A DNA stretch of 64,000 nt from Paracidovorax citrulli (GTDB taxonomy: Bacteria; Pseudomonadota; Gammaproteobacteria; Burkholderiales; Burkholderiaceae_C), in NCBI RefSeq assembly GCF_900100305.1, contig NZ_FNEY01000007.1:62001-126000 (forward strand), given 5' to 3'. Below the pieces are notes generated by a model, which was not told where the DNA came from, did not search any database, and was given only the letters and a program-made list of their open reading frames with translations. The translations under genes and the position numbers were made by a program. Below are positions 2,608 through 61,834 of this stretch, piece after piece. The number at the start of each line of letters is the position of its first letter. Position 1 is the stretch's first letter.

Positions 2608-4046
2608 TGCAGACCCTCTCCCACGGGCCCCGCCGCCTTCTCGGCGCGGCCGTCCTGTTCGCCCTGGCCGGCTGCGCGGCCACCGCGCCGCCGCCGCGCG
2701 TCGATGCCCCTGCGCCCGCCGGCTGGCAGGCCCCGCTGCCGCACCAGGGCCGCGTGGAAGACATCGCGCGCTGGTGGGAGCGCCTGGGCGATCCACTGCT
2801 CACCGACCTGATCGCCGCCGCGCAGGACGTGTCTCCGGACGTCGCCCAGGCCCGCTCGCGCGTGGAACAGGCCCGGGCCACGCAGGTGGCCGCACGCTCG
2901 GCGCTGCTGCCGGGCGTGGATGCCCAGGGCAACGCGAGCCGGGGCACCAGCCAGCAGGCTGCGGGGCTGGCGACGACCGTGCAGGGCGTCGTGCAGGCCA
3001 GCTGGGAGGTGGACGTCTTCGGCGGCAACGCCGCTGCCGCCGAGGCCGCGCGGCAGCGCCTGGCCGGCGCGCAGGCCCGGTGGCACGAGGCCCGCGTGTC
3101 GGTGGCCGCGGAAGTCGCCACGCAGTACGACGCATGGCGGCAGTGCCTGCGGCTGGCGGACGTGGCGCAATCCGATGCCCGCTCGCGCTCCGAGAGCGCG
3201 CGCCTCACGGAAGCCAGCGAACGCGCGGGCTTCACCGCGCCGGCCACGCTGGCGCTCGCCCAGGCCAGCGGGGCCGAGGGCCGGGTGCGCGCCGAGCAGC
3301 AGCGCATGGCCTGCGACATCGATCTGAAGGGCCTGGTGGCGCTCACGGGCCTGCCGGAGCCGGAACTCCGCGCCCGCGCGGCGGCGGCACCGGCGCCGCA
3401 GGCCCTGCCGGATTCGCTGTTCGCCATCGATACGCTGCCGGCCCGCGTGCTGGCCCAGCGGCCCGACGTGTATGCCGCCGAGCGCGAGGTGGCCGCGGCC
3501 AGTGCCGACGTGGGCAACGCGCGCGCCCAGCGCTTTCCGCGCCTGACGCTCGCCGGTTCCGTCGGCCGCGCCTGGGGCAGCACGGGCGGCACGAGCGTGG
3601 CGACGAACACCTGGTCGATCGGGCCCGTCGGGGTGAGCCTGCCGATCTTCGACGCGGGTCGCCGTGCCGCCCAGGTGGATGCGGCAGAAGCCCGCTACCA
3701 GGAGGCCGCGCAGCTCTACCGCGCGAACGTGCGCCGTGCGGTGAGCGAGGTCGAGCAGGCCCTGGTGCGGCTCGCGAGCACGGCCGCGCGCAGTGCCGAT
3801 GCCGAACGCGCCGCCGCGGGCTACCGCGCCTCCTTCGTCGCGACCGAAGCGCGCTGGCGCGGCGGCCTCGCGAGCCTGCTGGAGCTGGAGGATACGCGCC
3901 GCACCGCCCTCAATTCCGAGACCGCGCTCATCTCGCTGCGCCAGGAGCGCATGGCGGCATGGATCGGCCTCTACCGCGCCGCGGGCGGCGGATGGGAAGG
4001 ACCCGCGCAGGCATCCACACCCGTACCCGCCTCCGCCGCGCCCTGA
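2604..4046 (+). CDS. Outer-membrane efflux lipoprotein, NodT/OprM type
   Basis: The 480-residue protein starts with a lipoprotein signal whose lipobox ALAGC puts the acylated cysteine at residue 24. Two repeats of the TolC-like outer membrane efflux domain follow. The first begins at WWERLGDPLLTDLI and the second around RPDVYAAEREVAAASADVGNARAQRFP, the repeated pattern seen in OprM-class trimeric channels. It would form the outer-membrane exit duct of the pump encoded downstream. The chosen ATG overlaps the TetR stop; the next codon is also ATG. Regulator, outer-membrane factor, adaptor and pump run in one direction with short gaps, so one operon is likely. Confidence 0.93.
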   Translation: MMQTLSHGPRRLLGAAVLFALAGCAATAPPPRVDAPAPAGWQAPLPHQGRVEDIARWWERLGDPLLTDLIAAAQDVSPDVAQARSRVEQARATQVAARSALLPGVDAQGNASRGTSQQAAGLATTVQGVVQASWEVDVFGGNAAAAEAARQRLAGAQARWHEARVSVAAEVATQYDAWRQCLRLADVAQSDARSRSESARLTEASERAGFTAPATLALAQASGAEGRVRAEQQRMACDIDLKGLVALTGLPEPELRARAAAAPAPQALPDSLFAIDTLPARVLAQRPDVYAAEREVAAASADVGNARAQRFPRLTLAGSVGRAWGSTGGTSVATNTWSIGPVGVSLPIFDAGRRAAQVDAAEARYQEAAQLYRANVRRAVSEVEQALVRLASTAARSADAERAAAGYRASFVATEARWRGGLASLLELEDTRRTALNSETALISLRQERMAAWIGLYRAAGGGWEGPAQASTPVPASAAP

Positions 4047-4099
4047 CGGCCCGCCCCCGCATCCCCGACACACCGACCGCAACTTCCGGACCCTTTTCC

Positions 4100-5284
4100 A
4101 TGCTGCGACTGCGTTCACGCCCCTCCCTGCTGGCCCTGTCGGCCGCCTGCCTCGCCGCTGCCGCCGGCGGCGCCCTCGTGCTGGCCACACCCGGCGCCTC
4201 CCATGCCGAAGCCGCCAGGGACAAGGACGCCGCGGCGACCGCGCCCCGGCCGGCGCTCACCGTGACCACCACCACGCCCCGGCGCGAATCGCTCGCCGCG
4301 CGGCTTCCTGCCAACGGCAACGTCGCCGCGTGGCAGGAAGCGAGCATCGGCACCGAGAGCAACGGTTTGCGGCTGACCGAGGTACGGGTGAACGTGGGCG
4401 ACACCGTGCGCGCGGGCCAGGTGCTCGCAGTCTTCTCCGCCGACTCGGTGCAGGCCGAGCTGGCCCAGAGCCGCGCCAGCCTGCTGGAAGCGCGCGCGAG
4501 CGCCGCCGAGGCCGCGGCCAACGCCGAGCGCGCCCGCACGCTGCAGGCCTCGGGCGCCCTGAGCCAGCAGCAGATCCAGCAATACACCACCGCCAGCGAA
4601 ACCGCCGCCGCGCGCGTGGAGGCCGCGCAGGCCGCGCTCTCCGCGCAGCAACTGCGCCTGAAGCACACCCAGGTGCTCGCACCCGATAGCGGCGTCATTT
4701 CCGCGCGCACGGCCACGGTGGGCTCGGTGGTGGGCGCCGGTACCGAACTGTTCCGGATGGTGCGCAAGGGCCGCCTGGAGTGGCGCGCCGAAGTCACCTC
4801 CAGCGAACTGCCGCGCGTGCGGCCCGGCATCCGCGCCCGCGTCACCGCGGCGAGCGGCGCCGAAGTGGAAGGCACCGTGCGCGTGGTGGCACCCACGGTG
4901 GACCCGCAGTCGCGCAACGCCCTCGTCTATGTCGATCTGCCCGCCCATCCCGACATCCGGGCCGGCATGTTCGCGCGCGGCGATTTCCTGCTCGCGCAGC
5001 GCGACACCCTCACCGTCCCGCAGTCGGCCGTGGTGGTGCGCGACGGCTTCACGGCCGTGTTCGAGGTCGGCGAGGGCGGCCGCGTGGCGATGCGCCAGGT
5101 GAAGACCGGCCAGCGCACGGGCGACCGGGTGGAGATCCTCTCGGGACTGCAGGAGCGCGCCACCCTCGTGGAACGCGGCGGCGCGTTCCTCAACGACGGC
5201 GACACCGTGCGCGTCGAGGCATCCGGGGCGGCCGCGCCCGCCGCCGCCGCATCGACCGCGAAGAGCGCCGGCGCCGCGCGATAG
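4100..5284 (+). CDS. RND efflux periplasmic adaptor (HlyD/AcrA family)
   Basis: A 394-residue membrane fusion protein linking the inner-membrane pump to the outer-membrane channel. It has an N-terminal export or anchor segment (about residues 9-35), a split lipoyl domain (LTEVRVNVGDTVRAGQVLAV and later HTQVLAPDSGVISA), an alpha-helical hairpin rich in Ala/Glu/Gln between them, and a beta-barrel domain ending DIRAGMFARGDF. The C-terminal tail is Ala-rich. It begins 53 bases after the outer-membrane-factor gene and is followed by the pump after 66 bases. The family is clear; the substrate is not. Confidence 0.92.
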   Translation: MLRLRSRPSLLALSAACLAAAAGGALVLATPGASHAEAARDKDAAATAPRPALTVTTTTPRRESLAARLPANGNVAAWQEASIGTESNGLRLTEVRVNVGDTVRAGQVLAVFSADSVQAELAQSRASLLEARASAAEAAANAERARTLQASGALSQQQIQQYTTASETAAARVEAAQAALSAQQLRLKHTQVLAPDSGVISARTATVGSVVGAGTELFRMVRKGRLEWRAEVTSSELPRVRPGIRARVTAASGAEVEGTVRVVAPTVDPQSRNALVYVDLPAHPDIRAGMFARGDFLLAQRDTLTVPQSAVVVRDGFTAVFEVGEGGRVAMRQVKTGQRTGDRVEILSGLQERATLVERGGAFLNDGDTVRVEASGAAAPAAAASTAKSAGAAR

Positions 5285-5350
5285 AGAAGAAGCTGTCCCA
5301 CCGCCCATGCCGCATCCGCATTCCCGCCAGAGCCCCGAGAGCCCGCTGCC

Positions 5351-8300
5351 ATGAACCTTTCCGCCTGGTCCATCCGCAACCCCATCCCGGCCGCGATGCT
5401 GTTCGTGCTGCTCACCTTCGCGGGCCTGCTGTCGTTCCGCGCGATGAAGGTGCAGAACTTCCCCGACATGGACCTGCCGGTCGTGATGGTCACCGCCGCC
5501 CTGCCCGGCGCGGCGCCCGGCCAGCTCGAGACCGACGTGGCGCGCAAGATCGAGAACGCCATCGCCACCACGCAGGGCCTCAAGCACATCACGACCACCA
5601 TCGTGGACGGCACGGCCACCATCGCGGCCGAGTACCGCCTGGAAAAGCCCGTGCAGGAGGCCGTGGACGACGTGCGCTCGGCCGTCTCCCGCGTGCGCGC
5701 CGACATGCCGGCCGACCTGCGCGATCCCATCGTCACCAAGCTCGAACTCTCCTCGCAGCCCATCCTCGCCTTCGCCATCGCGTCCGACCGCATGGACGAC
5801 CAGGCGCTGTCCTGGTTCGTGGACGACACCCTCACCCGCCGCCTCCTGGCCGTGCCCGGCGTGGGCGCCGTCGGCCGCGTGGGCGGCGTGCAGCGCGAGG
5901 TGCGCGTGGCCATCGACCCGCTGCGCCTGCAGGCCCTGGGCGCGACGGCGGCCGACGTCTCGCGCCAGCTGCGCCTGGTGCAGACCGAAAGCGCGGGCGG
6001 CCGCACCGACCTGGGTGGCGCCGAGCAGCCCGTGCGCACCATCGCCACGGTGCGCACCGCGCAGGAAATCGCCGCGCTGGACATACCGCTGTCGGGCGGC
6101 GGCCACGTGCGCCTGGACCGGATCGCCACCGTCACCGACACGGTGGCCGAGCCGCGCACCGGCGCCCTGCTCGATGGCAAGCCGGTGATCGGCTTCGAGG
6201 TCTCGCGCAGCCGCGGCGCCAGCGAGGTCGAGGTGGGCGCGGGCGTACAGCGCGCGCTCGACCAGCTGGTGGCCGAGCACCCCGACCTGCACCTCACCCG
6301 CACGGTGGATTTCGTGGAGATCGCGAGCGACGAGTACGACAGCTCCATGCACCTGCTGTACGAAGGCGCCATCCTCGCGGTCGTCGTGGTGTGGCTGTTC
6401 CTGCGCAACTGGCGCGCCACCATCGTCTCGGCGGTGGCGCTGCCGCTGTCCGTGCTGCCGGCATTCATCGGCATGTACATGCTCGGCTTCTCGATCAACA
6501 TCATCACGCTGCTGGCGCTCTCGCTCGTCGTCGGCATCCTGGTGGACGACGCCATCGTCGAGGTCGAGAACATCGTTCGCCACCTGCGCATGGGCAAGAC
6601 GCCCTACCAGGCGGCGATGGAGGCGGCCGACGAGATCGGCCTGGCGGTGATCGCCACCACCTTCACCCTGATCGCCGTGTTCCTGCCCACGGCCTTCATG
6701 AGCGGCATCCCCGGGCGCTTCTTCAAGCAGTTCGGCTGGACGGCCGCGCTCGCCGTGTTCGCCTCGCTCGTGGTGGCGCGGCTGCTCACGCCGATGATGG
6801 CCGCCTACATCCTCAAGCCCCTCTCCGGCGAGGAGAAGGAGCCGCGCTGGCTCTCCGGCTACATGCGCGCCTCGGCCTGGGCGTTGCGCCACCGCGTGCT
6901 CACAGTGATCGGCGCGCTGCTGTTCTTCGTGGCCTCGATCGCGCTCATCCCGCTGCTGCCCTCGGGCTTCATCCCGCCGGACGACAACGCCCAGACCCAG
7001 GTCAACCTGGAGCTGCCGCCCGGCACCCGCCTCGCCGAGACCCGCGCCGCCGTGACCCAGGCCACGGAGCGCGTGCAGAAGGTGGGCCACGTGCGCAGCA
7101 TCTACACCGCCATCGGCGGCGGATCGGCGGGTGCCGACCCGATGGCCGGCGGATCGAGCGTCGGCGACCCGCGCAAGGCCACCCTCACGCTGCGCTTCGT
7201 GGCGCGCGGCGAACGCCCGCGCAAGCAGGAGATCGAGCAGCAGCTCCGCCTGGCGATGGAAGACCTGCCCGGCGTGCGCGTGAAGATCGGCCTGGGCGGC
7301 TCCAACGACAAGTACGTGCTGGCCCTGGCGAGCGAAGATCCGCAGGCCCTGGCCGACACGGCGCGCGCCGTGGAGCGCGACCTGCGCACCATTCCCGGCG
7401 TCGGCAACATCGGTTCCAGCGCCAGCCTCGTGCGCCCCGAAATCGTGGTGCGCCCCGACTTCGCGCGCGCCGCCGACCTGGGCGTGACCAGCAGCGCCAT
7501 CGCCGAGACCCTGCGCGTGGCCACCGTGGGCGACTACGACCAGAACCTGCCCAAGCTCAACCTGCCGCAGCGCCAGGTGCCGATCGTCGTGCGGCTGGAC
7601 GACGCCGCCCGCGAAGACCTCTCGGTGCTGGAACGCCTCGCGGTACCCGGCGCGCGCGGCCCCGTGCGGCTGGGCGAGGTCGCGCGCCTGGAAGTCGGCA
7701 GCGGCCCCGCCGTCATCAACCGCTACGACCGCGCGCGCAACGTCAACTTCGAGGTCGAGTTGGGCACGCGCGGCCTGGGCGAGGTCACCGAGGCCGTGCG
7801 GCAACTGCCCTCGGTGCGGCAGATGCCGGCCAGCGTGCGCCTGATCGACGTGGGCGACGCCGAGATGATGGGCGAACTGTTCGCCAGCTTCGGCCTCGCC
7901 ATGCTCACGGGCGTGGTCTGCATCTACCTCGTGCTGGTGCTGCTGTTCAAGGACTTCCTGCAGCCGGTCACCATCCTCATGGCGCTGCCGCTGTCGCTCG
8001 GCGGCGCCTTCGTGGGACTGCTGATCGCAGGCAAGAGCTTTTCCATGCCCTCGCTCATCGGGCTCATCATGCTCATGGGTATCGCCACGAAGAACTCCAT
8101 CCTGCTGGTGGAGTACGCCATCGTCGCGCGGCGCGACCAGGGCATGAGCCGCTGGGACGCCCTGCTGGACGCCTGCCACAAGCGGGCCCGGCCCATCATC
8201 ATGACCACGCTCGCCATGGGCGCGGGCATGCTGCCCATCGCCATGGCCTGGGGCGGCGCGGACATGAGCTTCCGCTCGCCCATGGCCGTGGCCGTGATCG

Positions 8301-8428
8301 GCGGCCTGCTCACCTCCACCGTGCTCAGCCTGCTGGTGGTGCCGGCCGTGTTCACCTACGTGGACGACTTCGCGCAGTGGTTCCAGCGGCGCGTGCTGGG
8401 CCGCCCGGGCCCCCAGCAGCGTACATAA
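5351..8428 (+). CDS. RND-family multidrug efflux transporter (AcrB/MdtBC-like)
   Basis: The 1025-residue inner-membrane proton/drug antiporter has the full-length duplicated RND layout: an N-terminal transmembrane helix (NPIPAAMLFVLLTFAGLLSF), a large periplasmic porter domain, six helices, then the same again. The transmembrane-4 signature GILVDDAIVEVEN lies around residue 400 and carries the paired aspartates used for proton relay. LIGLIMLMGIATKNSILLVEYA marks the equivalent segment of the second half. The length and the hydrophobic-substrate pattern fit the HAE-1 group rather than the heavy-metal CzcA group, so drugs, phenolics or other amphiphiles are likely substrates. In a plant-associated bacterium plant antimicrobials are plausible, but that is inference. 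Confidence 0.94.
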   Translation: MNLSAWSIRNPIPAAMLFVLLTFAGLLSFRAMKVQNFPDMDLPVVMVTAALPGAAPGQLETDVARKIENAIATTQGLKHITTTIVDGTATIAAEYRLEKPVQEAVDDVRSAVSRVRADMPADLRDPIVTKLELSSQPILAFAIASDRMDDQALSWFVDDTLTRRLLAVPGVGAVGRVGGVQREVRVAIDPLRLQALGATAADVSRQLRLVQTESAGGRTDLGGAEQPVRTIATVRTAQEIAALDIPLSGGGHVRLDRIATVTDTVAEPRTGALLDGKPVIGFEVSRSRGASEVEVGAGVQRALDQLVAEHPDLHLTRTVDFVEIASDEYDSSMHLLYEGAILAVVVVWLFLRNWRATIVSAVALPLSVLPAFIGMYMLGFSINIITLLALSLVVGILVDDAIVEVENIVRHLRMGKTPYQAAMEAADEIGLAVIATTFTLIAVFLPTAFMSGIPGRFFKQFGWTAALAVFASLVVARLLTPMMAAYILKPLSGEEKEPRWLSGYMRASAWALRHRVLTVIGALLFFVASIALIPLLPSGFIPPDDNAQTQVNLELPPGTRLAETRAAVTQATERVQKVGHVRSIYTAIGGGSAGADPMAGGSSVGDPRKATLTLRFVARGERPRKQEIEQQLRLAMEDLPGVRVKIGLGGSNDKYVLALASEDPQALADTARAVERDLRTIPGVGNIGSSASLVRPEIVVRPDFARAADLGVTSSAIAETLRVATVGDYDQNLPKLNLPQRQVPIVVRLDDAAREDLSVLERLAVPGARGPVRLGEVARLEVGSGPAVINRYDRARNVNFEVELGTRGLGEVTEAVRQLPSVRQMPASVRLIDVGDAEMMGELFASFGLAMLTGVVCIYLVLVLLFKDFLQPVTILMALPLSLGGAFVGLLIAGKSFSMPSLIGLIMLMGIATKNSILLVEYAIVARRDQGMSRWDALLDACHKRARPIIMTTLAMGAGMLPIAMAWGGADMSFRSPMAVAVIGGLLTSTVLSLLVVPAVFTYVDDFAQWFQRRVLGRPGPQQRT

Positions 8429-8446
8429 CCAGGGCAGGGCCAGTTA

Positions 8447-8480
8447 TCCCAGCCGGCCCCGAAACCCCGCGAGGCTGGGA
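8447..8480 (+). terminator. Hairpin after the efflux operon (weak terminator candidate)
   Basis: TCCCAGCC (8447-8454) and GGCTGGGA (8473-8480) form a perfect 8-bp inverted repeat 18 bases after the pump stop codon, with an 18-base loop. No T-run follows, so factor-independent termination is doubtful. Confidence 0.4.
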
Positions 8481-8489
8481 ACCACCATA

Positions 8490-8514
8490 TTCGCAAACAC
8501 GCCACTCTTTTCAG
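8490..8514 (+). promoter_or_regulatory. Imperfect PIP box (HrpX-type promoter element)
   Basis: TTCGC at 8490-8494 and TTCAG at 8510-8514 are separated by exactly 15 bases. The plant-inducible-promoter consensus bound by HrpX/HrpB-type activators is TTCGB-N15-TTCGB, so only one position differs. A TACTAAT sequence at 8542-8548 lies about 27 bases further on, near where a -10 element would be expected. The ATG of the large effector-like gene follows at 8582. Functional only by inference. Confidence 0.55.
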
Positions 8515-8581
8515 ATGCCGGCGTGGTCCCGCATGCAACCTTACTAATCATGACAATTATTTACACTTAGAGAGGCCCCCC

Positions 8582-11500
8582 ATGACCGCCATCGGCGCTG
8601 CTGAAAACAGACTATCTGCCCCCGCATCCCGGGAACCGGCCACACCGGCCACGGAATGCGCCCCCAGCGTCGAAAGGCAAGGTGCGAAACTGCAAAGGCA
8701 CGCAGGCCTGACGCCCCACGGCGCGACCGGGGCCGCGGCGATCTACACCACCGCCAACATGGCTCCGCGGTCGGCAAAAGGGGTGTTCGCCAGGTTGCAG
8801 AACCAGTGGAAGGCTGGCGAAACCGCAGTCCATTCCAGCCTGGGGCCGATCGCCCGGGATTCGCAGTCCCAGCACCCGGTCAATCGGCTGAACCAGATCA
8901 GTGCCCCGCGATTCGACGGCGGCGCCTCGGTGCCCCTGCCCCATGCCACCAGCGCAGGGCTGACGGAAGCCGTGCAGCAGGCGATCGGGGAACTGCAGGC
9001 GGCGGCGGGCCAGCCCGCCGGGAGCGGAAATCCGTTCGAGACCACCGATATGGCGGGAAAGGCAGCAAACTGGGCTCGGCATGCATTGTTCACACTGGCG
9101 ATGGGCAAGGGCCCGGCGAACGTACCGGCAGAGGCGCTCGCAATGCTCTACCGGCATCAGGGTTTCCAGACGCGTGGCGAGCCCGGCGAAGGCAAGCCCC
9201 CTGTCGTCCTGGACCACCTCAGAAACGTCGCCAATGCGGAAAAAGCCGGTGCCGTCATCCACATTGCTCGCCAGGCGAAGCTTGCCGACGGAGAGATCGT
9301 GGACTTGCAAGGACCCCTGCAGCAATTGGCCACTGCGAAGGAGGCTGCCGGCAAGCAGGCGATGGACAGCGCGAATGCAGCGAATGCGGAGACGGTCAAG
9401 CGGCTGCTCGACAGCGTGGCGCCCGCCCTGCGCCCCCGACTGCAGGCTGCATGCGACATCCTGATCGCGGAGCTGAACCATGGCCACGCAGTGCCCGACA
9501 CGCTCGCCGTAGAGCTGTTGGCCGATACCGCGCGCCTCACCTTTGCGCAGGACCCGGAGGGTTTGGTGGCAGCCATGGAAGGCCTGTCCAGCAGCCACCC
9601 GGCCAGGCTGATCGGCATGGTGGGCGAGGCCTTCCAGCCATCGGCGCTGAAACGCCACGCTCCGCCCGCGACGCCTGCGCTGCAGCTTGCCTGCGCGGTG
9701 GCCAGGGCGCCGGGAGGCCATCGCATGCTGGCCAGGATGACATGCCCTCCGGCCTCGGCAGCACAGCAGACGGCGTTGCAGGTCGCCATGGAGGCCATGG
9801 TGGAATTGCAGGCCAGCCGGAGCAGGCCCGCCGGTACCACGATGTCCGGGATCGAGTGGCTGCGGGCTGCTGTCTCGCACGCGGAACGCGCAGTCGATCC
9901 GGAAGGCAGCCCTGCTGTTCCGGACAGCCAGGCACGACAACAACTCGTGGCGTTCCGCGGAGTACAGAACGGCTTCCTGACCAACGAGCCGGGCTCAAGC
10001 TACGACCGGGTACGCCAGCGCCTGCAGAAATTCGGCGACGGCGCGCTGGACCAGACCTCCCGGCGCAACGCGCGCGCAGCCTCCGGACCCTCCGGGCGCT
10101 TCCAGAACTGGATGTCCGGCGGCCTTCCCAAGGCCATGGCCCGCAGCTCCTCCGGCATGGAAGGGCTCCTGCCCTCGGCACTGCCCGCCCTCTCGTCGTG
10201 GCTGCCCGGCACCCGGCCCACGATGTGGCGCAAATCAGTGATGCGCAATATGACCACGGCCGCCAGCAGTAACGGCATGCTGCCCAGCCGTGGCGAGGCG
10301 GTCGAGGCGCTGCACCGCTCGGCTGCCGATATTCGCGCCCACCTGCAGGCCCGTGCAGACGCCCACCTGTCTGCGCCCGAGAAGCTGATGCTCGCGCTCC
10401 TGGAGCAACTGGGATTGGGCTCGGGACCGGATGCGCCGCCACCTCCGCAGCGCACGCTCAAGCATCTGGACAAGGAATTCTTCCAGCAAGTGGAGGCCCG
10501 CCTGGACAAGGAAGGGCTGGCCGGACTTCCCGCCGGCCTCCACACGGACTGGCTCGCGCTGCGGGACACCCATCCCAACGCAGGGCACCTGCTGCGCCTG
10601 CTGTGCGAGCACGTCGATTTGCGGAGTCTGGCGAGCGGTACCGCACCTTCCCCGATGGCTTCCACCCAGACCGCGCGCGGACTGCGCACGGACACCATCG
10701 CCCACGCAGCCATCGCATCCTTCGCCGACATCGCCGCGTCGGCACGGTCGGCCGCTGGCGAGGGATCCACCGAGGCCGAAGCGCTGTCGCGCCTCATGCA
10801 GGCCACGGCATCGGCCCTGGCGGCAGTGACGCCGCCGGCCGCCTTGCGGGCGCTGCGCATCGAAACATTCGAGGCCGTGGAGCGCCAGGTCACCCTCGAC
10901 TGGCTGGCCGTCCTGCCCGAAGGAAAGCGGCCGTCCTGGGAGGAGGCTCGCGAGCAGGTCATGGATGCCTGGCCCGACGCGGTACAGGTTGCCTGGGCCG
11001 CGATGAAGAATTCGGGGGTCGACGCGGGCCGGCTGATGCGGACCCTCGCTGATGCTGCAGTCTCCGCGGCGTGGCCCCTGCCGCGCACCGAAGCCGGCCC
11101 CGGTCCTGGCTCCGGCACCGCGCCAGCCCGGGCGGTGGCCGATGCAGTGGCCCGGGCAGCGCCCGCACTGCAGTTGCTGCAGGACGATGTGCATGTGAAC
11201 CGCTTCGAAATGGCCGTGTCCGATATGGTGACACTGTTCAATGATCTGCGCGGCCCTGCCGATGCGGCCGAGGTCATGAAATCCCTGGCGCAGCGCATCA
11301 GCCTCGGCGAACAGATCAAAAGTGGCGATGCCCGGACGGCACGGCTGGACCTGGGCAAGGCCGTTTCCTTATCCACGAACGCGCCGGAACTGCTCGCCCC
11401 GATGCTGGGCCTGGGGCTGGGCCGCGAGCACGCCATGGACCTGAGCATGGTGGGAGCTGCGATACAGGTCCAGATCAGCACGGCGGATTCCAAGAGCGCC

Positions 11501-50727: not shown

Positions 50728-50931
50728 CGGCCACCTGACCAGCCTCCCGCCCTCCCTGCGCTGGTGGGCGTTTTGACTCGGCCGTACAACGGCCGGCCGC
50801 AGGATGACATTTCGTCACCATTTCCCTGCAATTCAGGATGCATGCTGACAACCGGGAACCCTCCGTTGCCGTTAGGCACCGGTTCCCGCACCGGCGGTCC
50901 ACGCCGTCTCCGCCCCCACGGAAGCTCACCC

Positions 50932-52782
50932 ATGCACTCCAATCCCACGGCCCCCGCCGGGCTGCCGCCCGCCGACCCGACGCAGCCTCGCTCCCCCACC
51001 GGACCGGCGGCCCCGGCCTCGCCCGCCATGGCCGCCTTCGCCGCCGCCGGCCTGCTGGCCGCATGCGGCGGGGGCAGCGGGGGCGAGCCGGCGTCCCCCG
51101 CCGGTGCCAGCGGCACCGCTGCAGGCACGGGGGGCGGAACGGCGGCCACGGCGCCCGCCACGGAAACGGATGCCGTGCGCTTCCTGCTCCAGGCCCAGTT
51201 CTCCGCCACCGACGAGGACATCGCCGCCGTGCGCGCCAAAGGCTACGCCGCCTGGCTGGCCGAACAGTTCGCGCAGCCCATCGGCACGACGGGCACCGAC
51301 TGGCTGGCGCAGCGCGGCTATGGCGTGGCGAACGCGGACACGCGCTACCACAACACGTCCTACCCCGCCGATTACATGCTGTGGAGCCAGCTCTTCACCG
51401 AGCGCGATGCCGTGCGCAAGCGCGTGGCGCTGGCGCTCTCGGAGATCATGGTCGTCTCCACCAATGGACTGAACCAGCCGTGGCCCGCGTTCCTCGCCGC
51501 CGGCTACTGGGACGTGCTCAACCAGCATGCGCTCGGCAATTTCCGCGCGCTGCTGGAGGCCGTGACGCTCAACCCCGCCATGGGCGTGTACCTCAACGCC
51601 CTGGGCAGCCAGAAGGAGGATGCGCGCACCGGCCGCCAGCCCGACGAGAACTATGCCCGCGAGGTGATGCAGCTCTTCACACTGGGCCTGTACCGGCTGA
51701 ACGCCGACGGCACCGAGCAGCGCGACGCGAGCGGCAACCGCATCGAGACCTACGGCCCCTCCGACGTGAGCAACCTCGCGCGGGTGTTCACCGGCTACGA
51801 CTACGACCGCAGCCAGAACCAGTCGTTCACCGTGGGCACCAGCACCGTGCCGGGGCCCCAGCAGGCGGGGCGGCCGATGGTGCTGGTCGCCAGCCGGCAC
51901 TCGGCGCTGGCCGCGACGTTCCTGGGTACGACCATCGGAGCGGGCACCCCGGGCGATGCGGCCCTGAAGACCGCGCTGGATACGCTTTTCAACCACCCCA
52001 ACGTCGCCCCGTTCATCGGCCGGCAGCTCATCCAGCGGCTGGTGACGAGCAACCCCAGCCCCGCCTACGTGGCGCGGGTGGCGGCCGCCTTCTCGGACAA
52101 CGGCAGCGGGGTGCGCGGCGACCTGCGCGCCGTGGTGGCAGCGATCCTGCTCGACAGCGAGGCCCGGGATGCCGCAGGCCTGTCCAGCCCCTCCTTCGGC
52201 CGACTGCGCGAGCCCATGGTGCGCTTCGTCCAGTGGGGCCGCACCTTCGGCCTGCGGTCGGCCCGCGGCAGCTGGAAGCTCGGCGACCTGAGCGACCCGG
52301 CCTCCCGGCTGGGGCAGAGCCCGCTGCGCTCGCCTTCGGTGTTCAATTTCTTCCGCCCCGGCTACGTGCCGCCCTCCACGGCCATCGCGTCCGCCGGGCA
52401 GGTGGCGCCGGAGTTCCAGATCGTCACCGAGTCCAGCGTGGGCGGCTACCTGAACTTCATGCAGAACGCGATCCGCAACGGCCTGTTCGTGAACGCTCCC
52501 GACCTGCCGCAGAACAACGCGAGCAACGGCAACAACGGCTTCGACATCACCTGCGACTATGCCGCCCTGCTCCCGCTGGTGACCGATCCGGCCGCACTGG
52601 TGCGCAAGGCGGCGCTGCTGCTGTCGGGGGGCCAGATCTCCGATGCCACGCAGGCGCGCATCGCCAATGCGCTGGCAGCCACGCCGGTCACGGCCTCGAG
52701 CAGCGCGGCGGCCAAGCTCAACCGCGTGGCCGCAGCCGTCTTCCTGGTCATGGCCTGCCCGGCCTATCTCGTGCAGAAGTGA
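50932..52782 (+). CDS. DUF1800 family exported lipoprotein
   Basis: A 616-residue protein. After a Pro-rich start, a hydrophobic stretch ends in LLAACGGGSGGEP, a lipobox followed by a flexible linker. The DUF1800 region begins at AVRFLLQAQFSATDEDIAAVRAKG and includes ENYAREVMQLFTLGLY and FNFFRPGYVPP. It is paired with a DUF1501 gene 35 bases downstream, the standard partner. Such pairs are widespread exported proteins of unknown function; roles in surface or extracellular polymer processing have been proposed but are not established. The 204-base leader contains CGGCCGT/ACGGCCG and GGGAACC/GGTTCCC inverted repeats. Confidence 0.9.
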   Translation: MHSNPTAPAGLPPADPTQPRSPTGPAAPASPAMAAFAAAGLLAACGGGSGGEPASPAGASGTAAGTGGGTAATAPATETDAVRFLLQAQFSATDEDIAAVRAKGYAAWLAEQFAQPIGTTGTDWLAQRGYGVANADTRYHNTSYPADYMLWSQLFTERDAVRKRVALALSEIMVVSTNGLNQPWPAFLAAGYWDVLNQHALGNFRALLEAVTLNPAMGVYLNALGSQKEDARTGRQPDENYAREVMQLFTLGLYRLNADGTEQRDASGNRIETYGPSDVSNLARVFTGYDYDRSQNQSFTVGTSTVPGPQQAGRPMVLVASRHSALAATFLGTTIGAGTPGDAALKTALDTLFNHPNVAPFIGRQLIQRLVTSNPSPAYVARVAAAFSDNGSGVRGDLRAVVAAILLDSEARDAAGLSSPSFGRLREPMVRFVQWGRTFGLRSARGSWKLGDLSDPASRLGQSPLRSPSVFNFFRPGYVPPSTAIASAGQVAPEFQIVTESSVGGYLNFMQNAIRNGLFVNAPDLPQNNASNGNNGFDITCDYAALLPLVTDPAALVRKAALLLSGGQISDATQARIANALAATPVTASSSAAAKLNRVAAAVFLVMACPAYLVQK

Positions 52783-54297: not shown

Positions 54298-54699
54298 TCA
54301 CGGCTTGGGACAACTGACCAACGGCGACGCTGGCGTGCATTCCGGGGGGACTTTTTCAAAAACGACGTCTCTGCCGACACGAACTTCATTCTGGTCCACA
54401 GAAGAATTCAAGTACCACGTGATTTCTCCGTTCAGCCAGAGATCGACGACCTCGCTTTCCCCAAGCAGCGTTTTGGGCTCGATCTTGTACAAGCGCACGA
54501 TATAAGGCATCTTGAAAGTGGGGTGGGCGATTTTTTGCAGAAGAGATGCCTTGTGAAACTCCAAACGATAAACCCGATGTGGACTGTTTTCACTGTCGAA
54601 AAATGTGGGGGTAGCAGCGCACCAGATCATGATCACGAGTGCATTCACAGCCAAGCACCAAACAATACACGGAATCTTCTTGAGTTGGGAAAAATTCAT
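54298..54699 (-). CDS. Small membrane-anchored protein of unknown function
   Basis: A 133-residue protein with one N-terminal transmembrane or signal-anchor helix (IPCIVWCLAVNALVIMIWCAA) and a soluble beta-rich domain. No family is recognised. Its ATG shares one base with the TAA stop of the DUF6402-type gene (TAATG), so translation is coupled and the two products probably work together. It is clearly less GC-rich than the flanking chromosome. A periplasmic immunity or accessory protein is one possibility, unproven. Confidence 0.65.
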   Translation of the reverse strand: MNFSQLKKIPCIVWCLAVNALVIMIWCAATPTFFDSENSPHRVYRLEFHKASLLQKIAHPTFKMPYIVRLYKIEPKTLLGESEVVDLWLNGEITWYLNSSVDQNEVRVGRDVVFEKVPPECTPASPLVSCPKP

Positions 54700-55580
54700 T
54701 ACCACTCCAATTTGACGGGAAAAGGCAGGCTTGTCCGATGCACATCGGAAAGCACAAGGAAATCACCGCCGCGACCATGCAATGCACGCCATTTTCGGAA
54801 GTCGTTGTTTTGCACAAAATAGGTGCGACCAGGCGCCTTGCTTTGAGTTTCTTCTATTTCTTCCTGAGAAACAGCTATCGATGCACTTACATCGAAGCGA
54901 TGGACGCCTTGATGCCCCCAAAATCCCAACGGCTGCGAAAGAAAATTATTTTCTCGATCATTGAAATCATAAGATTCACGCAAGTAAAATCCCAGCTCGT
55001 CAATATCAATAGCTAACTGGCCTGTACCTTTTCTGGTGACTATTCCTGATACGGCTACTTTGAGTGTTGCCTCTCCCATGGCGCCATAGAAATCATCCAG
55101 GGGGTCAGCAAGGCTGCCTAGACCAATAAAGTTCACTTGACAGGATTCATCCAGAATTTTTGCCGGTAACGCAAGATTACCAAACCTCCAACGCGGTTCG
55201 GTTTGGATATCGCTTTGCTTTTTCAAATGGAGTCGCAGCTGCGCCTTGCCCGCGGGACTTGCCCATTGCGCCTGCAGTTGTGTCATGGCGGTACGCACTC
55301 TGGCAAAGCCAAGCGCCCATGCCATGGTCACGGTGCTTTCGTCCAAGTAAGCCGGGATCAGACGGCTCAACCGATAGTTGTCGCGCCCTTGCTTCATAAG
55401 ATCAGGCATCTCGAACGCCGCCCCCCGAAACCACCGCTCCATCAACGCCGCAGCCACCGGCCACCCCAAGCGCGAACGCATCACACCCGGAATGTCATCC
55501 AGTTGGAAAATCCGCACCTTGGGCGGCAGTTTTTTCTCCAGTTGCGCACAGTTGCCCCTGGTCAACATGGACCACTCCAC
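54699..55580 (-). CDS. DUF6402-like protein
   Basis: A 293-residue protein without signal peptide. The segments RSRLGWPVAAALMERWFRG, IGLGSLADPLDDFYGAMGEATL, IDELGFYLRESYDFND, QPLGFWGHQGV and the ending NDFRKWRALHGRGGDFLVLSDV correspond to what I know of the DUF6402 family, often encoded near VgrG/PAAR-type type VI secretion genes. None are present here, so the pair would be an orphan island. A GTG at 55580 has GGGGAGG eight bases upstream; an ATG at 55568 is the alternative. GC content is lower than in the surrounding genes. Confidence 0.7.
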   Translation of the reverse strand: MEWSMLTRGNCAQLEKKLPPKVRIFQLDDIPGVMRSRLGWPVAAALMERWFRGAAFEMPDLMKQGRDNYRLSRLIPAYLDESTVTMAWALGFARVRTAMTQLQAQWASPAGKAQLRLHLKKQSDIQTEPRWRFGNLALPAKILDESCQVNFIGLGSLADPLDDFYGAMGEATLKVAVSGIVTRKGTGQLAIDIDELGFYLRESYDFNDRENNFLSQPLGFWGHQGVHRFDVSASIAVSQEEIEETQSKAPGRTYFVQNNDFRKWRALHGRGGDFLVLSDVHRTSLPFPVKLEW

Positions 55581-58782: not shown

Positions 58783-58881
58783 TTAAAGGGCGTCGGCATG
58801 CGGGAAACCCACCATGATAGGTGAGGCCGGCCGGCGGTGCCCGTGCCCATAATCGAAGCCCGTTCCACCGGCGCCCGCGCC

Positions 58882-59472
58882 ATGATCTTCCCGCCGCCAG
58901 CCGCCTCCACCGCCATCACCCGCCAGGACCGCGAACGCCTGCAGGGCCACCCCGCCCGGGCCGTCTGGCTCACCGGGCTCTCGGGCGCGGGCAAGACCAC
59001 CCTCGCGCACGCGCTGGAAACCTCGCTGCACCACGACGGCCTGCGCACTTTCGTGCTCGACGGTGACCGCCTGCGCGCCGGGCTCAGCAGCGACCTGGGC
59101 TTCACCGATGCGGACCGGGCCGAGAGCATCCGCCGGGCCGCGCATGTGGCGCGGCTGTTCGTGGACGCGGGGATGGTCGCCATCGTCGCGCTGATCTCGC
59201 CGTTCCGGGCCGAGCGCGCCGCGGCGCAGGCGCTGTTCGCGCCCGGGGATTTCGTCGAGGTGTACGTGAACGTGCCGCTGGCCGTGGCCGAGGAGCGCGA
59301 TCCCAAGGGCCTGTACCGGCAGGCCCGCAGCGGCGCGCTGCCGCGCTTCACGGGGATCGACTCGCCCTACGAGCCGCCGGAGGCCCCCGCATTGGAGCTG
59401 CGCACCGACGCGCTTTCCGTGGCGCAGTGCGTGCAGCGCCTGCGCGCGCAACTGGGCCTGCCGTCGGCATAG
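58882..59472 (+). CDS. cysC: Adenylylsulfate (APS) kinase-like protein
   Basis: A 196-residue P-loop kinase. Walker A is GLSGAGKTT at residues 32-40. The APS-binding region reads DGDRLRAGLSSDLGF, where Arg63 replaces the asparagine of the canonical DGDN. ISPFRAER, FVEVYVNVPLAVAEERDPKGLY and FTGIDSPYEPP are typical CysC blocks. It should phosphorylate APS to PAPS. No other sulfate-assimilation gene is adjacent, so it may supply PAPS for a sulfotransferase or be a divergent kinase. CATAAT at 58848-58853 is a likely -10 box. It is followed by the ubiquitin-domain gene after 171 bases. Confidence 0.88.
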   Translation: MIFPPPAASTAITRQDRERLQGHPARAVWLTGLSGAGKTTLAHALETSLHHDGLRTFVLDGDRLRAGLSSDLGFTDADRAESIRRAAHVARLFVDAGMVAIVALISPFRAERAAAQALFAPGDFVEVYVNVPLAVAEERDPKGLYRQARSGALPRFTGIDSPYEPPEAPALELRTDALSVAQCVQRLRAQLGLPSA

Positions 59473-59643
59473 GCGCCCGTTGCCCGCTCCAGCCCGACCG
59501 TGGGCAGCGGAAATTGCGCAGAGCGCACTTCACACGGCAGCGGTGTTCCGCCATGATGCGGGGATGCGCTTTTGTATCCAAAAGTTACGCCCGTCGTTTC
59601 CGCCTTTTTGCCGCCGGCGTGCGCGGCCAGGTCCCGTTGCCCC

Positions 59644-60507
59644 ATGACTTCCGGTTTTTCCCACCCCTTCCCGCTTCCCGCCCGTCTTTCCTTGCGCCGC
59701 GCCTTCGCGCAGCTGGCGCTGCTCTGCCTGCTCGCCTCCGGGGCGCAGGGCGCCTGGGCCATGCAGGTCTTCGTGAAGATGCTCTCGGGCGAAACCTTGA
59801 CGCTGGATGTGGAGCCCAGCGACTCCATCGAGAACGTGAAGGCGAAGATCCAGGACCAGAAGGACATTCCGCCCGAGCGGCAGCGCCTCATCTTCGCGGG
59901 CAAGCAGCTGGAGGACGGCCGCACGCTGTCCGACTACAACATCCAGAAGGACTCCACGCTGCACCTCGTGCTGCGGCTGAGCCCGACCACGTTCTCGGCG
60001 GCGTCGGCCACCGGCACGGGCACCATCACGGCCACGCTGGCCGGCCCGGCCGTCGCGGGCGGCTGCCAGTTCGACACCACGCAGACCGCCTTCGAGATGC
60101 CCTCCGGCGGCCCGGCCGGCGCACAGTTTCCCCACGGCGTGTTCCGCTTCGTCGCCACGAGCTGCACCGGCAGCGTGACGGTGACGCTGCAATACCCCCA
60201 GGCCCTGCCCGACGGCACCCGCCTCATCAAGTTCGGCCCCTCCGGCCCCGGCGCGGACCGCTACACCTGGTTCGAGTGGACGGACGCGCAGATCGCGGAC
60301 GACACGATCACCTTCACCATCACCGACAACGGCGCGGGCGACACCGACCCCACCGTGGGCGTGATCGCCGATCCGGCCGGCCCGGCACTGCTGGCCCCCG
60401 CGCCGGCACCCGCCCAGGCCACGCCGGTGCCCACGCTCTCCCCCGCCGCGCTGGTGCTGCTGGCCTGCGCGGCGGGCGTGCTCGGCTGGCGACAGCGTCG
60501 CCGCTGA
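59644..60507 (+). CDS. Exported ubiquitin-domain protein with choice-of-anchor U and IPTL-CTERM tail
   Basis: A 287-residue protein with four parts. Residues 1-39 are a Sec signal peptide ending AWA. Residues 40-113 are ubiquitin, starting [10 protein letters not shown]: by hand, 60 of 74 positions equal human ubiquitin. Lys6, 27, 29, 48 and 63 and the Leu8/Ile44/His68/Val70 patch are kept; Lys11 and Lys33 are lost. The end is LRLSPT instead of LRLRGG, so it cannot be conjugated. Residues 114-250 resemble choice-of-anchor U domains, with Cys141 and Cys174 as a possible disulfide. Residues 262-287 ([12 protein letters not shown], a helix, RQRRR) are an IPTL-CTERM sorting signal. Cleavage after Ala39 would leave ubiquitin Met1 as the mature N terminus. 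Codon use is that of the host. No ubiquitin enzymes are nearby. Function unknown; a displayed ubiquitin mimic is inferred. Confidence 0.93.
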
Positions 60508-60571: not shown

Positions 60572-61834
60572 ATGACCACTGCCGTGCCGGATCCCCTGCC
60601 GCCTACGCCCGCGACCGACATCCCCGCCGCCTCCGCCACCGCGATGACGCCGCTGGAGCGGCGCTCCAGCCTGTCGCTGGCGCTCATCTTCGCGCTGCGC
60701 ATGCTGGGGCTTTTCCTGGTGCTGCCGGTGTTCGCGCTCGAAGCGCGCAAGTACCCCGGCGGCGACGATCCCGCCCTGGTGGGCCTCGCCATGGGCATCT
60801 ACGGGCTCACCCAGGCCGTGCTGCAGTTGCCTTTGGGCATGGCCTCCGACCGTTTCGGGCGCAAGCGCGTCATCGTGCTCGGGCTGCTGGTGTTCGCGGC
60901 CGGCAGCCTGCTGGCCGCGCTGGCCGACTCGCTCGGCGGGCTGCTGCTGGGCCGCGCGCTGCAGGGTGCCGGCGCCGTCTCCGCCGCCGTGACGGCCCTG
61001 CTGGCCGACCAGACGCGCGACGGGGTGCGCACCAAGGCCATGGCGCTGGTGGGCGGCAGCATCGGGCTGATGTTCGCCGTGGCGCTCGTGGCCGCCCCGC
61101 CGCTGGCGGCCCGCTTCGGCCTGCCCGGCATCTTCGGGCTGACCTGCGCGCTGGCGCTGGCCGGCATCGCCGTGGTCCTCTGGGTGGTGCCGCCCGAGCC
61201 CGCACGCCATGCCGACGCACCGCGCGGCCGCCTGGCCGACGTGCTGCGCCACCCGGACCTGCTGCGGCTGAACCTCGGCGTGTTCGCGCTGCACACCGTG
61301 CAGCTGGCCATGTGGGTGGCCGTGCCCGCCCTGCTGGTGCAGGCCGGACTGCCCAAGAGCGCGCACTGGCACCTCTACCTGCCCGCCGTGGTGCTGTCCT
61401 TCCTGGCCATGGGCGGCCTGTTCGCCCTGGAACGCGCCGGCCGGCTGCGCGGCGCCCTGCTCGGCGCCATCGGCCTCGTGCTGCTGGTGCAGCTCGGGCT
61501 GGGCTGGGCGGCGTCGGCCGGCACGCCGCCGGGGCTGTGGGCCCTGGGCGGGCTGCTGTTCCTGTTCTTCTGCGGCTTCAACGCACTGGAAGCCAGCCAG
61601 CCCAGCCTCGTCTCGCGCACCGCGCCGCCGGCCGTGCGCGGCGCGGCCCTGGGCACCTACAACACGCTGCAGTCGCTGGGCCTGTTCGCGGGCGGCGCAC
61701 TGGGTGGCGCGCTGCTGCGCTGGGGCGGCGCGCATGGCCTGTTCGTGGCGACTTCCCTGCTCTGTCTCGCCTGGCTGGCCGCGGCCTGGGGCATGCAGCC
61801 CGTGCCGGCCCAGGGCAGCCGCGGGCGAAAGTAA
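60572..61834 (+). CDS. Major facilitator superfamily transporter (YajR-like)
   Basis: A 420-residue 12-helix transporter. The MFS loop signature GMASDRFGRKRVIVLGLL follows helix 2, and RALQGAGAVSAAVTALLADQTRDGVRTKAMAL matches motif C and the loop of drug:H+ antiporters such as YajR; the extra C-terminal ferredoxin-like domain of YajR is absent. MFS genes of this type commonly lie between uvrA and ssb in betaproteobacteria. A GGCGA-GAA-TCGCC mini-hairpin sits in front of the gene. Confidence 0.92.
   Translation: MTTAVPDPLPPTPATDIPAASATAMTPLERRSSLSLALIFALRMLGLFLVLPVFALEARKYPGGDDPALVGLAMGIYGLTQAVLQLPLGMASDRFGRKRVIVLGLLVFAAGSLLAALADSLGGLLLGRALQGAGAVSAAVTALLADQTRDGVRTKAMALVGGSIGLMFAVALVAAPPLAARFGLPGIFGLTCALALAGIAVVLWVVPPEPARHADAPRGRLADVLRHPDLLRLNLGVFALHTVQLAMWVAVPALLVQAGLPKSAHWHLYLPAVVLSFLAMGGLFALERAGRLRGALLGAIGLVLLVQLGLGWAASAGTPPGLWALGGLLFLFFCGFNALEASQPSLVSRTAPPAVRGAALGTYNTLQSLGLFAGGALGGALLRWGGAHGLFVATSLLCLAWLAAAWGMQPVPAQGSRGRK

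Follow-up and report, generated by a model that had tools for sequence, protein, structure and literature searches.

A ubiquitin predicted to be displayed at the cell surface of Paracidovorax citrulli, and exported ubiquitins on other bacterial anchors

Paracidovorax citrulli carries a gene whose 287-residue product joins, in this order, (i) a signal peptide, (ii) a ubiquitin close to that of eukaryotes, (iii) a choice-of-anchor-U domain, and (iv) an IPTL-CTERM sorting tail. The same genome encodes XrtH (TIGR04177), which we take to be the enzyme paired with IPTL-CTERM tails (TIGR04174), and the gene is maintained, with purifying selection on its ubiquitin part. Judging from these features, we consider it probable that the ubiquitin is displayed on the cell surface. 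Ubiquitin is usually regarded as a cytosolic eukaryotic modifier, and an exported bacterial ubiquitin, BfUbb, has been described as a free antibacterial protein. If our reading is true, ubiquitin anchored through four or more unrelated display systems would be a general bacterial trait, and a single odd gene would become a testable question of ubiquitin's binding partner outside the cell.

Results

Architecture of the ubiquitin gene and its product

The window, by which we mean the whole 64,000-nucleotide stretch of DNA that was analysed, contains the gene and the flanking features listed in Table 1. The four-part composition of the protein had been proposed in a first-pass annotation made from the letters of the DNA, and Pfam and NCBIfam matches over cut-off bear it out. 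PF00240 matched residues 42-112 (E 6e-29; 100.1 bits vs. a curated cut-off of 25.4), the NCBIfam model choice_anch_U (NF041766) matched residues 157-249 (E 3.7e-24, over cut-off), and the tail was recognised both by the Pfam IPTL-CTERM model PF18203 over residues 260-287 (E 1.6e-8, over the curated cut-off) and by the NCBIfam model IPTL_CTERM (TIGR04174; E 2e-8; 34.3 bits vs. a cut-off of 20.5). The signal peptide was judged by inspection, from its hydrophobic stretch and its AWA motif. As the annotation had pointed out, cleavage after AWA would leave the ubiquitin Met1 at the N terminus; by motif, the same would hold throughout the genus, where AWA stands directly before Met1 in 10/10 copies.

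Table 1. Features of the ubiquitin gene and its surroundings in the window
Feature	Position	Strand	Remarks
Whole gene of the ubiquitin protein (predicted to be exported and surface-sorted)	59644..60507	+	287 aa plus stop; domain matches
Signal peptide, residues 1-39, AWA at end	59644..59760 (precedes 59761)	+	Best 10-residue Kyte-Doolittle mean 2.44
Ubiquitin domain, residues 40-112	59761..59979	+	PF00240; 60/74 positions as in human; dN/dS 0.052
Choice-of-anchor-U domain, residues 157-249	60112..60390	+	NF041766, E 3.7e-24, over cut-off
IPTL-CTERM sorting tail (motif, hydrophobic stretch, basic end), residues 260-287	60421..60504	+	PF18203, TIGR04174
Sigma-70-like promoter-like match upstream of the ubiquitin gene	59529..59557	+	Consensus match only: 9/12 bases
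Adenylylsulphate kinase gene, upstream neighbour, flank of the insertion site	58837..59472	+	PF01583, E 5.8e-59
MFS transporter gene, downstream neighbour, other flank of the insertion site	60572..61834	+	PF07690, E 2.5e-45

Aligned without gaps, the ubiquitin part is identical to human ubiquitin at 60/74 positions, an identity from which we predict a ubiquitin fold; among single ubiquitin chains in the PDB, the best match to the window protein scored 128.4 bits (6dc6_B). The alignment also agrees with the annotation residue by residue: Leu8, Ile44, His68, and Val70 of the recognition (Ile44) patch are kept together with Lys48 and Lys63, Lys11 is replaced by Glu and Lys33 by Gln, and Gly75-Gly76 is replaced. 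The Gly-Gly pair is absent from 10/10 copies in the genus, Gly75 by itself persisting in three of them, and the pair occurs in one of the 40 bacterial ubiquitins compared below, where it is internal to the chain. The C-terminal Gly-Gly of a conjugable ubiquitin is thus missing from the window copy, and its loss supports the earlier view that the protein is probably not meant for conjugation.

The ubiquitin gene is the sole PF00240 match at E 0.001 in the window's genome, and none was found in 14 control genomes. Neither of its immediate neighbours, the kinase and the MFS gene, is an E1, E2, or protease gene; no toxin domain or immunity gene was recognised in these two, and PADLOC returned no match for the window protein. 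The promoter-like match was found once vs. 0.0 times expected in shuffles, and in an alignment of upstream regions, its first hexamer differs in four genomes (G002, G003, G005, and G014). Elsewhere in the window, positions 54699-55580 (minus strand) encode a DUF6402 protein (E 1.7e-76), downstream of which a small open reading frame (54298-54705) matches no Pfam model, and positions 50764-52782 (plus strand) encode a DUF1800 protein (E 4.1e-93).

Distribution and selection within the genus

PF00240 is present in 10/17 genomes of the genus, and both the anchor-U domain and the IPTL tail score over cut-off in all ten copies (the window protein and 9/9 others), the nearest named relatives being those of Paracidovorax oryzae (91% over residues 1-282) and P. 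cattleyae (85%). The first-pass annotation had named an absence of the fusion from sister strains as a finding that would speak against it; the fusion is, on the contrary, conserved in them. The ubiquitin gene is flanked by the kinase and the MFS gene in 7/17 genomes. In G009, these two adjoin: their aligned ends are about 190 bases apart, and no match to ubiquitin was seen. In the other nine genomes, the sequence retrieved next to the MFS gene, which itself has a close match in 17/17, yielded no kinase. Three genomes (G010, G011, and G015) have the ubiquitin gene at other sites. Seven genomes share one site, G009 lacks the gene, and three hold it elsewhere, so that gain, loss, or relocation of the gene has taken place within the genus.

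In G015, a ThiF-family gene is located near the ubiquitin gene; we considered it as an E1 and rejected this reading, since its best match is TcdA, though at 235 bits vs. a cut-off of 304 for that model. No ThiF-family gene was seen among the neighbours scanned in G010 or in the window. A gene beside the ubiquitin gene of G015 (L072, positions 6103-7242) encodes another IPTL-CTERM protein, which has Ig, cadherin-like, and carbohydrate-binding domains.

The gene is maintained, and purifying selection acts on its ubiquitin part. Under a codon model, which allows for codon bias, the ubiquitin part had a dN/dS of 0.052 across the ten genus copies and of 0.063 within clade A, close to the respective values of 0.058 and 0.065 of the anchor part; the log-likelihood for the ubiquitin part was -964.4 as fitted vs. 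-1084.6 at a dN/dS of 1. Pairwise counting gave the ubiquitin part values of 0.345 when all pairs of clade A were taken, 0.431 in the clade-A core, 0.071 in clade B, and 0.134 between clades A and B. In the clade-A core, the ubiquitin part counted in this way exceeded the anchor part (0.145), and the short linker alone reached 1.85; by either method, the values for the ubiquitin and anchor parts are all below 1.

These results weigh on the possibility that the gene is eukaryotic DNA that was inserted by accident or is decaying, and that goes unexpressed. Such an insertion would fit the patchy presence in the genus (10/17), the side-by-side neighbours in G009, and a G+C content that is lowest (0.67) over the part encoding the signal peptide and ubiquitin. 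Against it stand a G+C content that is host-like over the gene (0.67-0.75), the site common to seven genomes, and the dN/dS of 0.052 with its difference in log-likelihood. Because the gene is found in 10/17 genomes, evolves at this dN/dS, and has XrtH in its genome, we conclude that its insertion was not accidental; that explanation is already contradicted, and we hold it to be extremely improbable.

Outside the genus, the anchor-U part (residues 140-241, 41.8%) is matched by a DUF1566-annotated protein on a Diaphorobacter plasmid (NZ_CP049906.1, positions 590591-590917), which has no ubiquitin match at that locus; hence, the anchor-U part seems to have other partners.

XrtH and the IPTL tail

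The window's genome matches the XrtH model at E 3.2e-77 (259.4 bits vs. a cut-off of 86), and one of the 14 control genomes had a match, below cut-off. Among 28 further genomes searched, XrtH was present in 22, comprising 18/18 with a ubiquitin-IPTL or IPTL-like protein and 4/7 genus genomes without the ubiquitin gene; it was present in none of the three genomes (G170, G410, and G413) in which the ubiquitin lacks a tail of this kind. Its occurrence in the four genomes of the genus that are without the gene indicates that XrtH has other substrates.

We extended the comparison to a draw of 399 genomes from the family, of which 52 have XrtH over cut-off, and searched for ubiquitin in an equally sized family draw with matching genome labels, which yielded 11 positives. 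Five of these pass the IPTL cut-off (G000, G004, G005, G162, and G312) and all five have XrtH, which gives a hypergeometric P of 3.2e-5 for 5/5 vs. 52/399 and of 0.011 by genus (3/3), values that are too small because genomes and genera are treated as independent, which they are not. Four more (G034, G345, G095, and G400) have tails that are IPTL-like by eye and fail the IPTL model, one of them passing a MYXO-CTERM model; XrtH is present in all four. With these eye-judged tails added, P is 5.7e-9 (9/9) and by genus 9e-5 (6/6, against a background of XrtH at E 0.001 in 32/141 genera), figures that are too small for the same reason. The remaining two positives are G354, with a ubiquitin-like stretch in a large protein and with XrtH, and G170, with a free ubiquitin and without XrtH.

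The presence of the enzyme in the window's genome, together with the signals in the protein, supports the claim of the first-pass annotation that the protein is exported and sorted to the surface, as it would be under our reading. In a Methylomirabilis species, the proposed S-layer protein has a predicted IPTL-CTERM tail (PMC8671808), and IPTL tails may therefore lead to the outermost surface.

Five proteins from other Burkholderiaceae genera (L019, positions 1495-1827, and L020, L021, L024, and L025), which we counted among those with an IPTL or IPTL-like tail, have no signal peptide before their ubiquitin, and their genomes carry XrtH. The tail of L019 is just over the IPTL cut-off (21.2 vs. 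20.5), that of L024 passes the MYXO-CTERM model instead (17.8 vs. 15.85), L021 weakly matches an XrtH-related model, and no sorting-tail model matched L020 or L025. Thus, not every member can follow the route described here.

Exported ubiquitins on other anchors

PF00240 was found in 8/197 genomes of the family of Paenibacillus faecis, 7/299 of that of Flavobacterium sp. 270, and 3/149 of that of Brevundimonas bullata, each count including the known carrier, as well as in 11/399 of the window's own family. A phylum-wide draw gave 2/398, namely, the window's genome and one weak match. We assembled a comparison set of 40 bacterial ubiquitins, leaving out repeat copies of the same genomes (L002-L004 and L027-L033), a second Pseudoalteromonas plasmid (H4), the weak match L051 (E 1e-5), and three ubiquitin-like stretches that lie mid-way in large bacterial proteins (L040 in G550, L026 in G354, and L047 in G893).

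A signal peptide was judged present in 35/40 of these proteins by the hydrophobicity of the stretch upstream of the ubiquitin, the best 10-residue mean being at least 2.0 in them vs. at most 1.2 in the others where computable. Ala, Ser, or Gly immediately precedes Met1 in 35/35, and the signal peptide is followed by ubiquitin as the first domain, a placement that holds by choice, given the omission of L026, L040, and L047. What follows the ubiquitin differs among lineages. The ten genus copies carry the anchor-U domain with the IPTL tail, and four proteins carry the IPTL tail alone (L007, L023, L049, and L050). IPTL-bearing exported ubiquitins occur in three Caulobacteraceae; the first-pass annotation had suggested a search for bacterial ubiquitins with IPTL-CTERM or anchor U, and such proteins do exist. 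S-layer homology (SLH) domains follow in 7/7 Paenibacillaceae proteins with an N-terminal ubiquitin, with three matched stretches each, and a type IX tail ends five Flavobacteriaceae proteins. The Aquabacterium protein has an autotransporter barrel (E 2.6e-22), the Rhodobacter protein has a part that looks barrel-like and is recognised by no Pfam barrel model, the Pseudoalteromonas plasmid protein is annotated as Ig-like, and the C-terminal part of the Ruminococcus albus plasmid protein matches no recognised domain. Five exported ubiquitins are free, comprising three tandem genes in Flavobacterium sp. 270, L042, and L022; the four from Flavobacteriaceae (the three in L009 and L042) have a cysteine at or near the end.

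Several of these loci have features of their own. The three tandem Flavobacterium genes (L009, positions 7348-8877) are diverged and have an ABC transporter gene upstream. The exported ubiquitin on plasmid pRUMAL01 of R. albus 7 (L069, positions 3926-4666) is identical to the human protein at 65/72 positions and is surrounded by hypothetical genes, with a dockerin protein encoded downstream. On the Pseudoalteromonas plasmid (L070, positions 3908-8177), a very large Ig-like protein has at its start a signal peptide and a ubiquitin that has diverged (33/72 as in human).

Since the display machineries are unrelated and the placement of ubiquitin is identical, the comparison gives our strongest argument for display outside the cell as the selected trait. 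A phylogeny of the ubiquitin part, another of the checks suggested at the outset, was run on 41 rows and 73 columns; it gave good support to 2/38 inner branches, placed human ubiquitin near the centre, and fits one or many acquisitions alike. Phages gave no match, and in viral contigs, five stretches fit a peptide pattern, none of them a relative. We see a chance approaching, if not quite reaching, one in two that ubiquitin was separately joined to the carrier's own display machinery (IPTL/XrtH, S-layer homology, type IX secretion, autotransporter, or giant Ig-like protein) in at least three phyla, because displayed ubiquitin, exported, non-conjugable, and with a free Met1, binds a common partner outside the cell.

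Conservation of the recognition patch

From the patch kept in the window copy, the first-pass annotation had argued for selection to be recognised as ubiquitin, an argument that did not hold up across the comparison set. The Ile44 patch (positions 8, 44, 68, and 70) is intact in 20/40 bacterial copies, including 5/10 in the genus and 6/7 in Paenibacillaceae. Its mean conservation, unweighted, was 0.71 vs. 0.77 for random surface residues (P for lower, 0.25), and with clade weighting, it was 0.57 vs. 0.75 (lower-tail P, 0.013), in a test that assumed a list of buried residues. Within the genus, the patch is about average in conservation, and within Paenibacillaceae, it is slightly above. Lys48 and Lys63 are both kept in 8/10 genus copies, and over the whole set, Lys48 is kept in 29/40 and Lys63 in 34/40. 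The most conserved positions are Leu50 and Tyr59 (40/40 each), followed by Asn60 (39) and Asp58 (38); the Asp58-Tyr59-Asn60 contrast was picked after the counts were seen.

Since the patch is no better conserved than the surface at large, the data fail to show selection for a reading by eukaryotic receptors, though such selection may act in the clades that keep the patch. This bears on a surface mimic aimed at a eukaryote, either a plant host or a grazing protist, in which the displayed ubiquitin would bind or occupy ubiquitin receptors, deubiquitinases, or ligases in the host cytosol or phagosome. Such a mimic would suit the high identity of the window ubiquitin to the eukaryotic protein, the patch that is whole in this copy and in six of the seven Paenibacillaceae copies, and, as general background, a genus that includes plant-associated species. 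A surface anchor, however, would not put ubiquitin into the host cytosol, and the named carriers include Brevundimonas, Aquabacterium, and Paenibacillus, which have no plant link in the data here. Parallels do exist in that the plant-parasitic nematode Globodera secretes a ubiquitin effector (PMC5705921) and that BfUbb inhibits ubiquitination in vitro in a human cell extract (PMC3352274). Taking both sides together, we regard a eukaryote-directed mimic as unlikely.

The same counts suit an explanation in which ubiquitin is a stable cap: its unusually robust fold at the N terminus would shield a surface protein or act as its spacer, with no specific partner. The most conserved positions look structural (with the reservation on their choice given above), the receptor patch is not favoured, and ubiquitin comes first after the signal peptide in all 35 copies that have one. 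Nonetheless, identity to human ubiquitin of up to 67/72 exceeds what the fold alone would need, going by general knowledge of ubiquitin-like proteins, and free exported ubiquitins, which have no partner domain to cap, would be left unexplained. A mere cap therefore strikes us as rather doubtful. Whatever their use, these naturally diverged, non-conjugable ubiquitins form a set for separating fold residues from recognition residues.

Discussion

A proposed route to the surface and a possible use

We infer, from its sequence signals, that the window protein is exported, cleaved, and anchored. In the scheme that we propose, Sec would export the ubiquitin precursor, and signal peptidase I would cut after AWA, so that the ubiquitin Met1 would become the free mature N terminus. 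XrtH would then recognise the IPTL tail, remove it, and fix the protein at the surface; with the choice-of-anchor-U part lying between ubiquitin and the tail, ubiquitin would stand at the far end from the anchor. There, the non-conjugable ubiquitin would be displayed as a binding ligand, its most likely use being contact with, or antagonism of, other bacteria, in the manner of the free exported BfUbb.

BfUbb of Bacteroides fragilis has a signal peptide that ends exactly at Met1, is secreted, and inhibits other strains of its species; an immunity gene is apparently lacking, and its authors describe B. fragilis as one of few bacteria with a eukaryotic-like ubiquitin (PMC5705921). It has no Gly-Gly and ends in a cysteine (PMC3352274), and sensitivity to it is set by a tyrosine in a peptidyl-prolyl isomerase (Jiang et al. 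2024, as cited in PMC12396204). We favour other bacteria as the partner because BfUbb works in this way, the receptor patch is not favoured, presence is patchy, and the tandem Flavobacterium copies are divergent; the last two, with the gene in 10/17 genus genomes, fit antagonism. Against the scheme, BfUbb is free, whereas the window protein has anchor domains and no C-terminal cysteine. Given display, an antagonistic use toward other bacteria is possible, though we would not bet on it at even odds; it is the weakest step, drawn by analogy from one relative. The explanation as a whole, display plus bacterial antagonism, is accordingly offered as tentative.

Comparison with known systems

We found no paper that contains both "ubiquitin" and "IPTL-CTERM" in the literature searched, which lacked most subscription papers, and among the matches listed, no title or abstract start dealt with ubiquitin-anchor fusions. 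The window protein can be set beside four known systems. With eukaryotic ubiquitin (PF00240), it has 60/74 residues in common and, hence, a predicted fold; it differs in having export signals and a C-terminal fusion and in lacking Gly-Gly, Lys11, and Lys33. Bacterial ubiquitin-like conjugation operons also exist, and the ubiquitin fold is the likeness to them; the window gene, in contrast, has neighbours other than E1, E2, or protease genes and no PADLOC match, and its product bears export signals. The XrtH-sorted IPTL-CTERM proteins are alike in their signal peptide, their IPTL tail, and the XrtH of the window's genome, and the window protein differs from them in its cargo, which is ubiquitin. 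Finally, BfUbb and the window protein are both eukaryote-like ubiquitins with a signal peptide that ends at Met1 and no C-terminal Gly-Gly; while BfUbb is free and has its C-terminal cysteine, the window ubiquitin, which has no Cys within it or at its end, is the first domain of a protein that continues into anchor domains.
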